Shown here: positions 5,915 to 28,800 of the stretch, piece by piece
Layout of the letters: every line of letters starts with the position of its first letter
Position numbering within the stretch: the stretch's first letter is position 1
Source: an uncultured Pelagibacteraceae bacterium
GTDB lineage: Bacteria > Pseudomonadota > Alphaproteobacteria > Pelagibacterales > Pelagibacteraceae
Direction: 5' to 3'
Assembly (NCBI GenBank): GCA_902588965.1
Contig: CACIRD010000003.1
Span: 62,001-126,000 of the forward strand
Length of the DNA stretch: 64,000 bases
Program-made: the position numbers and the translations under genes
Notes under the pieces: model-generated
The model's input: only the letters and a program-made list of their open reading frames with translations
Told to the model about the DNA's origin: nothing
The model's database searches: none

Positions 5915-6331
5915 ATGAATAAACAAGATTTTATCAATAAATTAAGAAATTCTGGCTTAAGGCCAACAAAACAAAGAATAAAGATCTGCGAAACTTTGTT
6001 CAATACTGAAAAAACTTTCCATTTTACAGTGAACGATCTTGCAAAAATTATCCATAAAAACTTCAGTGAGAATATTTCTTTAGCAACTGTTTACAATACC
6101 ATTCATGCATTTAAAAAAAAAGGCTATCTAAAAGAAATTTCTTTGGGAAATGACAAGAGTTATTTTGATACTAATGTAAGTTCTCACCATCATTTCTTCG
6201 ATACTAAAACTAACGAATTAATTGATATCGATTTAAATAAAATTGAGCTTAAAAATATTCCGAGTCCTCCAAAAGGAAAATCAATAAAAGATATTGATGT
6301 AGTTATAAATATTGAGAACGATTCTCAATAG
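5915..6331 (+). CDS. irr: Fur-family iron response regulator Irr
   Basis: This 138-residue Fur-superfamily protein has a winged-helix N-terminus ([33 protein letters not shown]) and a dimerisation domain. The Irr-specific histidine cluster is present in [23 protein letters not shown]. No CxxC zinc motifs of Fur or PerR are seen. Irr proteins of Rhizobiales sense haem and repress iron-using genes under iron limitation. The irr to fabA-fabB-fabI neighbourhood is a known alphaproteobacterial arrangement. Palindromes before irr and before katG fit autoregulation and katG control. Confidence 0.85.
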
Positions 6332-6348: not shown

Positions 6349-6352
6349 CTAC

Positions 6353-6380
6353 TTGACTTACACTTTAGACTCATTATAAA
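6353..6380 (+). promoter_or_regulatory. Sigma-70-type promoter of katG with an overlapping second Irr-like site
   Basis: TTGACT (6353-6358) and TATAAA (6375-6380) are separated by 16 bp, and the katG ATG follows 30 bp downstream behind an AGGAG-type site. The -10 region lies within TTTAGACTCATTATAAA (6364-6380), a second, weaker Irr-box-like repeat with two mismatches to the half-sites. A repressor bound to the two sites would flank the -35 and cover the -10. Confidence 0.5.
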
Positions 6381-6389
6381 GTACTTTAA

Positions 6390-8618
<2,229 letters not shown>

Positions 8619-23629: not shown

Positions 23630-24196
23630 ATGACATTTATTGATCAAAACTCATCTTTAGAAAAATGTCCTGCGCTAGTGTTAAACGCAGACTATCGACC
23701 ATTGAGTTATTATCCATTATCTTTATGGAGTTGGCAAGACTCTGTAAAATCTGTTTTTTTAGATCGAGTTTCGATTGTTAATTATTATGATAGAATTATT
23801 AGGAGTCCATCATTTAGTATGAAACTTCCAAGTGTTATAGCTTTAAAAAACTATATTAAACCTTTGTCCAACCCAAATTTTACAAGATTTAATGTTTTCT
23901 TAAGAGATAAATTTACATGTCAGTATTGTGGAAGCAAAAAAGAATTAACTTTTGACCATTTATTGCCAAGATCAAAAGGTGGAAAAACAGATTGGGACAA
24001 TGTGGTTACAGCATGCTCCATGTGCAATGTTAAAAAAGGTGGAAGATTATTGAATAAATCTGGCATGACATTAAATCAAATACCTTACCAGCCTACTACA
24101 GAAGATCTTCATAAAAATGGAAAAAATTTTCCACCTAATTTTCTTCATAAAAGTTGGATTGACTACTTATATTGGGATGTGGAACTTGAACCTTAA
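23630..24196 (+). CDS. HNH endonuclease-family protein
   Basis: A 188-residue protein with a C-terminal HNH domain. CQYCGSKKELTFDHLLPRSK supplies the first zinc knuckle and the His, and KGGKTDWDNVVTACSMCNVK the Asn and second knuckle. The N-terminal ~100 residues (ALVLNADYRPLSYYPLSLW) match the widespread bacterial HNH proteins that stand alone on chromosomes. Their cellular role is not settled. A defence or recombination role is not implied by its neighbours, which are housekeeping genes. It is convergent with coq7 with no gap. Confidence 0.9.
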   Translation: MTFIDQNSSLEKCPALVLNADYRPLSYYPLSLWSWQDSVKSVFLDRVSIVNYYDRIIRSPSFSMKLPSVIALKNYIKPLSNPNFTRFNVFLRDKFTCQYCGSKKELTFDHLLPRSKGGKTDWDNVVTACSMCNVKKGGRLLNKSGMTLNQIPYQPTTEDLHKNGKNFPPNFLHKSWIDYLYWDVELEP

Positions 24197-25958: not shown

Positions 25959-27662
25959 ATGGAATTAAAAAAATTTAGAAATTTATTAGAATTATTTTTT
26001 GAACAATATAAAAAACAAAAGAAAGATGAGATTTTTTTAACTTCGTTAAAAAATATAGATAAAAGCTTCACATGGGAAAAAACTTTCAGATCAATAATAA
26101 ATTTTTCAAACGAAATTTCAAAGTTCATTAAAAAAGGAGATAGATGTTTATTGATTTCTGAAAATAGACCAGAATGGCTGATATCAGATTTATCTATAAT
26201 GCTTTCAGGTGGTATTACAGTTCCTGCATACACAACATATACAGAAAAGGATTATGAGTACATAATAGATGATTGTAAACCTTCAATCGTTATAGTTTCA
26301 AATTTAGATCAGTATATTAAAATTAAAAATTTTATTAAAAAAAAAATTTTTATAAAAAAAATTTTTTATTTTGAAAATTTGGAAAATTTAAAAGATGATA
26401 ATTTTATTTATTTCGATGAAATTTTAAAAAATTCTAGCTTAAATTATAGCATCATTCCTGAATGCAATATCATAAGAAAAGATCCAGCTTGTATAATTTA
26501 TACCTCCGGTACCCAAGGCAACCCCAAAGGAGTTGTACTAAGTCACGGAGGAATTTTAACTAACTGCGAAGGTGCCTACGACCTACTCTCAAAGCTTATT
26601 ATAAAATCAACTCGTTTTTTAACTTGGCTACCTCTATCTCATTCTTATGAGCATACAGTTCAGTTTGTACAAATATCTGTTGGTGCTAAAATTTTTTACG
26701 CAGAAGGTATTGATAAACTTATAAAAAACATGAATGAGTGTAAGCCACATATTATGACTGCTGTACCGAGATTTTACCAAAACCTGTATCAGAAAATAAA
26801 TTTAAGCTTTAGTAAAGCAACAGGTTTAAAAAAATATCTAATTGAGTCAACTGTAAAACTCGGTTCAAAAAATATGATAGAAAAAAACCTTAGTTTTTTA
26901 GAAAAAATACTCAATAAAATAAATGAAATATTGGTTCGAAAAAAAATAAAAAAACAGTTTGGTGGTTCACTTAAAACATTCGTTTCAGGAGGTGGAGCTT
27001 TAAATAAGGAAGTAGGATTATTTCTTAATTCCATTGGTCTTCCAACTTTGCAAGGCTATGGTTTGACAGAGACATCACCAGTAGTTAGTTGTAACCCAAT
27101 AAATGATATTAGAATTGAAACTGTTGGACCACCATTTAAACAAAATGAAGTAAAAATTGCTCATGATGGTGAAATTTTAGTAAAGGGTGAAAATGTCATG
27201 TTAGGTTATTGGAATAATAAACAAGAAACAGAAAAAATTATTATTAATAATTGGCTTCATACTGGAGATATAGGAAGATTTGAAAATAATTATCTTATTA
27301 TTACAGATAGAAAAAAAGATATTTTAATCACACCAGGGGGAGATAATATTTCACCATTAAAAGTAGAGAATGAACTTACAAATTCAGACTTTATTGAACA
27401 AGCAGTAGTGTTTGGAGATAATAAACCTTATTTAGTTGCCTTAATTGTACCTTCGGAGGATAAAAAAAATAGTTTTAAAGAACAAATTGAAGGTGAAATT
27501 TTAAAAATAAATAAAAACTTAACAAATATTGAAAAAATTAAAAAATATTTTGTAATAAATGAAAAATTTACAATTGAAAATGGAATGTTGACACCAACAT
27601 TAAAACTAAAAAGATATAAAATTATTCAAAAATTTAAAAATAATTTTGAAAAACTTTATTAA
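25959..27662 (+). CDS. Long-chain acyl-CoA synthetase (AMP-binding enzyme)
   Basis: This adenylate-forming enzyme of 567 residues activates fatty acids with ATP and CoA. The P-loop-like motif IIYTSGTQGNPKGVVLSH lies near 180, and TWLPLSHSYEHTVQFVQ follows as in FadD/FAA1-type enzymes. The A5 motif is GYGLTETSPVVSCN, and the hinge TGDIGRFENNYLIITDRKKD and C-terminal LTPTLKLKRYKI complete the fold. It starts 7 bp after tRNA-Leu. The closest group is the long-chain acyl-CoA ligases; chain length cannot be told. Confidence 0.9.
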   Translation: MELKKFRNLLELFFEQYKKQKKDEIFLTSLKNIDKSFTWEKTFRSIINFSNEISKFIKKGDRCLLISENRPEWLISDLSIMLSGGITVPAYTTYTEKDYEYIIDDCKPSIVIVSNLDQYIKIKNFIKKKIFIKKIFYFENLENLKDDNFIYFDEILKNSSLNYSIIPECNIIRKDPACIIYTSGTQGNPKGVVLSHGGILTNCEGAYDLLSKLIIKSTRFLTWLPLSHSYEHTVQFVQISVGAKIFYAEGIDKLIKNMNECKPHIMTAVPRFYQNLYQKINLSFSKATGLKKYLIESTVKLGSKNMIEKNLSFLEKILNKINEILVRKKIKKQFGGSLKTFVSGGGALNKEVGLFLNSIGLPTLQGYGLTETSPVVSCNPINDIRIETVGPPFKQNEVKIAHDGEILVKGENVMLGYWNNKQETEKIIINNWLHTGDIGRFENNYLIITDRKKDILITPGGDNISPLKVENELTNSDFIEQAVVFGDNKPYLVALIVPSEDKKNSFKEQIEGEILKINKNLTNIEKIKKYFVINEKFTIENGMLTPTLKLKRYKIIQKFKNNFEKLY

Positions 27663-27781: not shown

Positions 27782-27838
27782 TTGACATAAGTTAATAAAA
27801 AAAATAAAAATAATGTTAATAGCGAATCATTTGATTCG
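27782..27838 (+). promoter_or_regulatory. Putative promoter and hairpin leader of the polybasic peptide gene
   Basis: A perfect -35-like TTGACA lies at 27782-27787. The -10 is unclear, with only AT-rich candidates near 27805-27814. Downstream, CGAATCATTTGATTCG (27823-27838) is a perfect inverted repeat that can form a 6-7 bp hairpin in the mRNA leader, 12 bp before the GGGAG ribosome-binding site. It could be an operator, an mRNA stabiliser or a translation control element. Confidence 0.4.
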
Positions 27839-27861
27839 TAAAACAAAACAGGGAGCTAAAG

Positions 27862-27933
27862 ATGGCTAAAAGAAGAAAAAAAGCTAAGAAAAAAGCTAAG
27901 AAAAAAGCTAAAAGAAGAAGAAGAAGAAGATAA
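27862..27933 (+). CDS. 23-residue polybasic peptide (not in ORF track)
   Basis: The ORF starts at 27862 after a good ribosome-binding site (GGGAGCTAAAG). It encodes MAKRRKKAKKKAKKKAKR and then a run of Arg to the stop. Except for the initial Met and four Ala it is all Lys and Arg. AKKKAKKK units resemble the tails of histone H1-like bacterial proteins. It has a leader hairpin, a strong terminator directly after it, and lies convergent to carD. A role in binding nucleic acid or ribosomes is an inference from charge only. I know of no characterised function. Confidence 0.7.
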   Translation: MAKRRKKAKKKAKKKAKRRRRRR

Positions 27934-27952
27934 TTTTTTTTTTTCTATTTTA

Positions 27953-27988
27953 AAAACGCTTCTCATAAATTTTTGTGAGAAGCGTTTT
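27953..27988. terminator. Bidirectional intrinsic terminator
   Basis: AAAACGCTTCTCA (27953-27965) and TGAGAAGCGTTTT (27976-27988) form a perfect 13-bp stem with a 10-base loop. T runs follow in both directions. It can end the polybasic peptide transcript on the plus strand and the carD operon on the minus strand. Confidence 0.9.
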
Positions 27989-27990
27989 TT

Positions 27991-28800
27991 TTATTCTGGA
28001 TTTTCTATATTTTCTACGTTCTCTGAACTTTCTTGAGTTGTTATAGGACTCTTTGTCTCCACTGGTTTAGTTTGTTGTTCTAAATTTCTTTTTAAAGCTT
28101 TATTTAACTTTTTTTGAGTATCTTCTTTAGATAATTTAAGAACTATTTGAAATTCTGACAAAATTCTATCATAAGCTTTTTCAAATAGTTGTCTTTCACT
28201 ATAAGATTGATCAACAAGAATATCGTCTCCTTTATTTAGGTCTCTCACAACTTCCGCTAATTCATAAATTTTTCCAGATGTTATCTTTTGATCATATTCT
28301 TGTGCTCTTCTACTCCACATAGATCTTTTAATCTTAGGTTTACTTTTTAAAATAGATATAGACTTATTAATTTGATTTATAGTGGACAGAGGTCTTAAAT
28401 GTGATTGTTTATTAATTGGCAATAATCCTATTGCTTTATCTTTCTCAAATTTAATATCATAGCATTGTACTTCAATACCGCCTATAGTTTTTGTACTTGT
28501 AGATAAAATTTGACCTACACCATGTTTTGGATAAACAATATAATCTTTAGGTTTGAAAATTTTCTTTTCTGTTTCTTGTTTTTTTATCTTCTTTATTTCT
28601 GGTTTTTGCTCATTTTGTTTAGGTATCCTTAAATTAGGAGATTTTGGCTTTTCTTTTAATACTTGAGCTTTTTTTATTTTTGGCGACTTTTTTTTCTTTA
28701 TATCCTTTACACTTTTTTTTTTAGTTTTTTTTAAAACTTTTTTTTTTATATTTTTTTTGGGTTTTTTTTTATTCAAGATTTTCTTTAAAATATTTTTCAT
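27991..28800 (-). CDS. CarD/CdnL-family transcription regulator with lysine-rich N-terminal tail
   Basis: CarD/CdnL proteins bind RNA polymerase beta and stabilise open promoter complexes, notably at rRNA promoters. The conserved module starts near residue 88 ([17 protein letters not shown]), continues with [20 protein letters not shown], and has the C-terminal helical domain with [17 protein letters not shown] and [23 protein letters not shown]. Before it are about 85 residues, mostly Lys with Pro and Ile ([18 protein letters not shown]), unusual for the family. The start lies 32 bases inside fdxA. No later Met occurs before the CarD core. Confidence 0.9.

Follow-up and report, generated by a model that had tools for sequence, protein, structure and literature searches.

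The window analysed here, a stretch of 64,000 nucleotides from the genome of an uncultured Pelagibacteraceae bacterium, contains a genuine gene for a 23-amino acid peptide, MAKRRKKAKKKAKKKAKRRRRRR, in which 18 of the 23 residues are lysine or arginine and the remainder are methionine and four alanines. The frame (27862–27933, plus strand) and its composition are kept across two families, and the gene belongs to the core set of the Pelagibacterales (SAR11), in which it is near-universal. The best explanation of the whole, with a probability of about 0.62, is that the product is a minimal H1-like polycation, a charge-based binder of nucleic acids probably under CcrM/GcrA control.

SAR11, one of the ocean's most abundant cell lineages, possesses very few regulators. 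The literature searched makes no mention of a polycation gene that is near-universal in SAR11. The peptide would rank among the smallest conserved bacterial proteins of the H1-like kind, and its promoter would be a strong candidate for a specific target of CcrM/GcrA in the CtrA-less SAR11. The gene is easily overlooked because most members from the same genus are 23–30 amino acids long, the product would not survive tryptic digestion and the spacer is low in GC (20.4%, which falls under the 26% cut-off applied when this organism was screened earlier for structured RNAs; PMC2704228).

A core gene for a very short basic peptide

The preliminary description of the locus, made from the sequence alone, is confirmed as a whole, in that the TTGACA element, the palindrome CGAATCATTTGATTCG, the AGGGAG sequence, the 23-residue frame and the terminator stem are all present; its wording of an ‘all-basic’ peptide overstates the composition by five residues. 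In the scan of the open reading frames of the window, this is the sole case with K/R of at least 60% with 15 amino acids. The gene lies between that of an AMP-forming acyl-CoA ligase family protein upstream (25959–27662, plus strand; Pfam AMP-binding) and the convergent carD, encoding a CarD-family protein (27991–28800, minus strand; Pfam CarD_C and CarD_TRCF_RID), an arrangement that is syntenic among the relatives.

The count in SAR11 genomes proposed in the preliminary description bears out the gene: the DNA from leader to terminator is matched in 375 of the 397 genomes of the family and in 139 of the 140 good ones. Together with the uniqueness of the frame in the window and of the leader motifs in its genome, this shows that the arrangement did not arise by chance. 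Among the 207 carD-containing loci examined (some genomes are represented more than once), 178 belong to Pelagibacterales, and 172 of these contain a K/R-rich frame between carD and the upstream gene. Five of the other six (L091, L143, L145, L158 and L208) are cut by contig ends or by the ends of the fetched sequence, and in the last, L153, MAKRRKGGKKKKKAKKKKKK is broken by a shift in an A-run, the single frameshifted Pelagibacterales locus, so that all intact loci from this order but one encode a frame-preserved K/R/A peptide convergent with carD. The 29 carD loci from other alphaproteobacterial families yield no convincing peptide adjoining carD; a high-GC GTG frame in the non-Pelagibacterales carD locus L102 passes the crude filter. 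When the leader DNA alone is used as the query against named genomes, the 80 loci listed are all from Pelagibacteraceae, Pelagibacterales or Candidatus Pelagibacter, and 79 of them contain the K/R-rich peptide; in the last one, the frame leaves the end of the locus, so that all 79 uncut loci found in this way are coding. The titles of these loci also assign the window itself to SAR11. Viral contigs, inspected for carriage by phages, contain no match to the leader plus peptide. A 26-nt match at another place in the genome (L003), considered as a possible second copy, was rejected: it resembles the Shine-Dalgarno and start region but has no K/R-rich frame.

The start pattern, scanned across the class, occurs in 6 of 289 genomes, two of which are the window's own genome and a member of the family; among the remaining genomes, four in number, a comparable H1-like protein is encoded by G555 alone. 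This 58-amino acid protein (MAKKKKKAAPKKKKKAAP..., L147), from another family outside the order, is encoded about 6 kb from carD and is either a distant relative or a product of convergence; it has no GANTC upstream, which counts against the favoured reading.

The length of the peptide varies from 19 to 58 amino acids in the window's family. At the same locus, genus g12 encodes H1-like homologues of 34–58 amino acids, e.g. MAKKRKKAAKKKVAKKPAKRKVAKKKPAAKKRK, and the sister family f2 encodes proteins of 40–91 amino acids that plainly resemble histone H1 tails, with AAPKKK repeats of the KKAAPKKKRKAA type, e.g. MEELKVIFAKARKKAKKKAAPKKKRKAAKRK. The f2 homologues (L126–L144) have in common the N-terminal motif MEELKVIFAKA or MEDLKIIFAAA, which is absent from the window's family. 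The family peptides of up to 40 amino acids consist of lysine (54.5%), arginine (23.6%) and alanine (17%), and there are 64 distinct peptides among the 122 distinct loci of the family set. The likeness to H1 tails that the preliminary description had proposed is thus explicit in the longer homologues: these are K/A/P-rich, low-complexity, basic chains, with a number of repeats that differs between relatives.

Selection on the encoded protein can be gleaned from the codon changes. Between nearest coding sequences of equal length, single-base changes comprise 146 synonymous and 82 non-synonymous ones, 61 of the latter being K/R swaps, in a set that was pre-filtered on K/R content and a MAK/MPK-type start and therefore favours a coding result; five mutation models predict 18–26% synonymous changes and 57–73% changes to other residues or stops. 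The sets found through carD or through the leader DNA, in which K/R content was not filtered likewise, give the same coding picture. Conservation of the hairpins without the frame had been named as the outcome that would speak against a gene, and the gene stands because the frame is conserved alongside the hairpins.

Neither the peptide nor its long homologues (up to E 1) match a Pfam or NCBIfam family, and the long homologues match none of the curated H1-like models there, including those for chlamydial Hc1/Hc2 (E up to 1). The sequences of solved chains in the PDB contain no match to the peptide. The search for a known Rfam RNA produced sub-threshold matches alone, e.g. rhtB on the minus strand (30.5 bits against the 55 needed), and this candidate was discarded.

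Two side observations concern neighbouring genes. The CarD-family protein carries a very Lys-rich N-terminal extension before the CarD domain (28560–28800, minus strand), and many CarD homologues from other families align from about residue 62 on only. The 188-amino acid protein encoded at 23630–24196 has IscB as its best NCBIfam match, over approximately 60 residues and at 45.7 bits (cut-off, 175 bits), and is probably an ordinary HNH endonuclease domain.

Promoter, leader hairpin and terminator

The signals around the gene are conserved along with it, the control region even more so than the peptide. The −35 element TTGACA (27782–27787, plus strand), noted in the preliminary description, is perfect in 125 of 132 homologous leaders, compared with 0.5% of shuffled leaders reaching 6/6, and is located 37–42 nt 5′ of CGAATC in these leaders; the combination TTGACA-N28-40-CGAATC occurs once in the window's genome. 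The predicted −10 element, TAAAAA (27805–27810, plus strand), is weak, with a 17-nt spacer and four of six matches to TATAAT; of 133 leaders, 104 have their best −10 at spacer 17, mostly with 4/6, and the element reads TAAAAA in about half of the leaders. From the position of the −10, transcription would start at about 27817, with roughly 5 nt preceding the hairpin. The locus goes unmentioned in the text of the paper on SAR11 transcription start sites (PMC5069720). The ribosome-binding site is good, as described earlier: the Shine-Dalgarno sequence AGGGAG (27850–27855, plus strand) lies 6 nt 5′ of the ATG, and GGGAG or a near variant is found in most homologous leaders.

The leader hairpin is perfect, as claimed. 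It corresponds to the palindrome CGAATCATTTGATTCG (27823–27838), of which the 5′ arm is CGAATCA (27823–27829, TGATTCG on the minus strand; GANTC at 27824–27828) and the 3′ arm is TGATTCG (27832–27838, plus strand). In 99% of 133 leaders, and in 97.5% of the 40 that lack the second GANTC (18.9, compared with 8.0 in shuffles), the potential to form the hairpin is above the 95th percentile of shuffled sequences. In g4, pairing is maintained via GATTTG (G-U). In g5, g7, g9 and g12, the register of the stem is shifted to pairs of the ATCACTTAA/TTAAGTGAT type, with compensatory differences, e.g. ATCACATAA/TTATGTGAT; these stems begin 2–3 nt inside GAATC, which leaves the first bases unpaired, and CGAATC is still invariant. 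Since the hairpin is retained in leaders without the second GANTC, the RNA structure is probably under selection in its own right. Additionally, the leaders of g7, g9 and g12 (L065, L072, L075, L070, L084 and L086) contain an upstream CTCC that could base-pair with GGAG in the Shine-Dalgarno sequence and so conceal it, which suggests translational control in these genera.

Downstream of the gene, a predicted bidirectional terminator stem (27952–27989) comprises 17 pairs, a loop of 4 and a T-run; of 202 homologous loci, 198 have such a stem with a T-run and at least 9 pairs, the sequence of the stem having changed. In the window, 2 nt separate the end of the stem from the carD stop codon, and A-runs precede and T-runs follow the stem, so it can serve both genes and is probably common to them. 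Of the transcription unit of its own attributed to the peptide in the preliminary description, the promoter, the leader hairpin and the Shine-Dalgarno sequence are accordingly retained across the order, and the dedicated terminator is not.

A candidate CcrM/GcrA site in the leader

What the preliminary description overlooked is that the conserved leader element, judged by its sequence, is the extended GcrA/CcrM methylation motif. TGATTCG, or more broadly YGAKTCK, has been proposed as the extended methylation motif for activation by GcrA in Caulobacter (PMC7987155). CGAATCA is the reverse complement of TGATTCG and thus fits this motif, at a conserved position; in the window, both arms of the hairpin are copies of it. 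In the distinct family leaders anchored on TTGAC, GAATC is found at a fixed distance in 119 of 119 and CGAATCA in 118, and one further leader, beyond the distance window, carries both the TTGAC and the GAATC elements. The same TTGAC/CGAATC arrangement is found in family f2, and CGAATCA-N2-8-TGATTCG occurs once in the window's genome.

This degree of conservation is not common to the GANTC sites of the neighbourhood. Five such sites in neighbouring coding sequence, employed as a local control, are kept in 0–8% of the relatives, compared with 80 of 80 for the site at 27824; the site at 27833 belonged to the search pattern for those 80 loci, so its retention there proves nothing. The other GANTC sites that are well kept fall within a tRNA gene and within or beside the conserved helicase gene. 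In the window at large, GANTC is depleted (120 sites, compared with 168 ± 13).

Genes for GcrA and a CcrM-like methylase are present in the window's genome. GcrA is represented by a PF07750 match above the cut-off, and there is one N6_N4 methylase (N6_N4_Mtase plus RAMA domains), with CcrM as its best NCBIfam match; neither CcrM nor GcrA attains its equivalog cut-off in NCBIfam, and the assignment therefore rests on domain architecture, E-values and the report of a CcrM homologue in SAR11 (PMC3973325). Methylation of the GANTC sites is almost complete in a cultured SAR11 strain (PMC9516812), and an orthologue of ctrA is lacking in Pelagibacter (PMC2877005).

The closest parallels are the mipZ and ctrA P1 promoters of Caulobacter, with which the leader has in common GANTC within the extended motif TGATTCG, in a genome that contains GcrA and CcrM-like genes. 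At mipZ, two GANTC sites are juxtaposed (PMC3667746), and likewise in the window's leader. The regulatory proposal is specific but has an evident weakness: unlike the Caulobacter GcrA/CcrM promoters, the candidate SAR11 site lies 3′ of the predicted −10, inside the transcribed leader, where it also forms an RNA hairpin, and part of the GANTC conservation may serve that hairpin. The invariant heptamer suggests that the gene is under cell-cycle control, with a promoter probably transcribed under CcrM/GcrA control.

Proposed role of the peptide and its alternatives

We infer the expression, the binding target and the regulation of the gene as follows. A sigma70-type promoter would start the transcript about 5 nt 5′ of the hairpin, which would probably protect the 5′ end of the mRNA or tune translation; the strong Shine-Dalgarno sequence would drive translation of a K/R/A peptide that is expected to be disordered by itself, and the terminator common to carD would end the transcript. 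The peptide would most likely rely on charge alone to bind nucleic acid, in the first place nucleoid DNA and in the second RNA; a disordered, charge-only binder is the best fit because, as in H1-like tails, conservation extends to the composition but leaves length and order free. Lying near +6, the invariant CGAATCA (minus-strand TGATTCG) would be a CcrM methylation site in an extended GcrA motif, and transcription would hence probably be tied to chromosome replication via GcrA. A broader proposal, which we regard as tentative, is that SAR11 couples the synthesis of a histone-tail peptide to chromosome replication, with CcrM methylation and GcrA timing the promoter, so that its streamlined cell cycle, which lacks CtrA, has its own DNA-compacting polycation of 20–30 amino acids.

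The known sequences most similar in kind are the C-terminal domains of AlgP and PhaF and the tails of chlamydial Hc1/Hc2, which are likewise K/A(P)-rich. The tail of AlgP (PMC9239181) and Hc2 (PMC2848022) are disordered and variable in repeat number, and in vitro, the KPAA-repeat peptides of AlgP are DNA binders (PMC9239181). Unlike these proteins, the window's peptide is only 23 amino acids long, lacks a folded domain and has an Arg run at its C-terminus.

Ribosomal, polyphosphate-binding and RNA-binding roles of the peptide are possible as well. The ribosomal mini-proteins, eukaryotic eL41 and bacterial bTHX, are very short and highly basic, and a peptide of this kind fitting into rRNA would also account for the strong Shine-Dalgarno sequence and the near-universal presence in the order. 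Such a role is nevertheless unlikely, given that the likeness ends with small size and charge: a length of 19–91 amino acids with low-complexity repeats and the diversity of the family peptides are unlike a fitted ribosomal peptide of fixed length and sequence, and solved chains contain no match in sequence. Slightly less likely still would be binding of polyphosphate or another polyanion in place of a nucleoid role, by analogy with AlgP, which has an H1-like tail, is located at polyP granules and keeps these spaced (PMC9239181); the N-terminal domain of AlgP is absent from the SAR11 peptide, and no gene nearby points to polyP. The compactness of the unit, with its hairpin and terminator, and the strong overall fold (z = −5.6) could also signify a non-coding RNA with an incidental frame. 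This reading was rejected as highly improbable, since the codons change as in a coding sequence and long homologous proteins are encoded at this locus in relatives; the frame moreover survives many length changes, and the Shine-Dalgarno sequence and start are conserved.

The competing account of regulation, namely that CGAATCA serves solely as an RNA hairpin at the mRNA 5′ end, its likeness to the GcrA/CcrM motif being coincidental, is a serious contender, if on the whole doubtful. It is consistent with the persistence of pairing in the 40 leaders without the second GANTC, with the G-U pairs that do not preserve a DNA palindrome and with the location of the site 3′ of the −10. Pairing alone, however, would let both arms drift jointly, whereas it is the 3′ arm alone that does, and CGAATC is invariant in g5, g7, g9 and g12 even though its first bases are unpaired there.

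Apart from the peptide gene, the window contains a GACTC (GANTC) at 6368, between TTGACT and TATAAAG (6350–6411), upstream of a catalase/peroxidase gene (6411–8618) that adjoins the gene for an Irr-like Fur-family regulator (5915–6331); the 6350–6411 region is a possible second CcrM-sensitive promoter.
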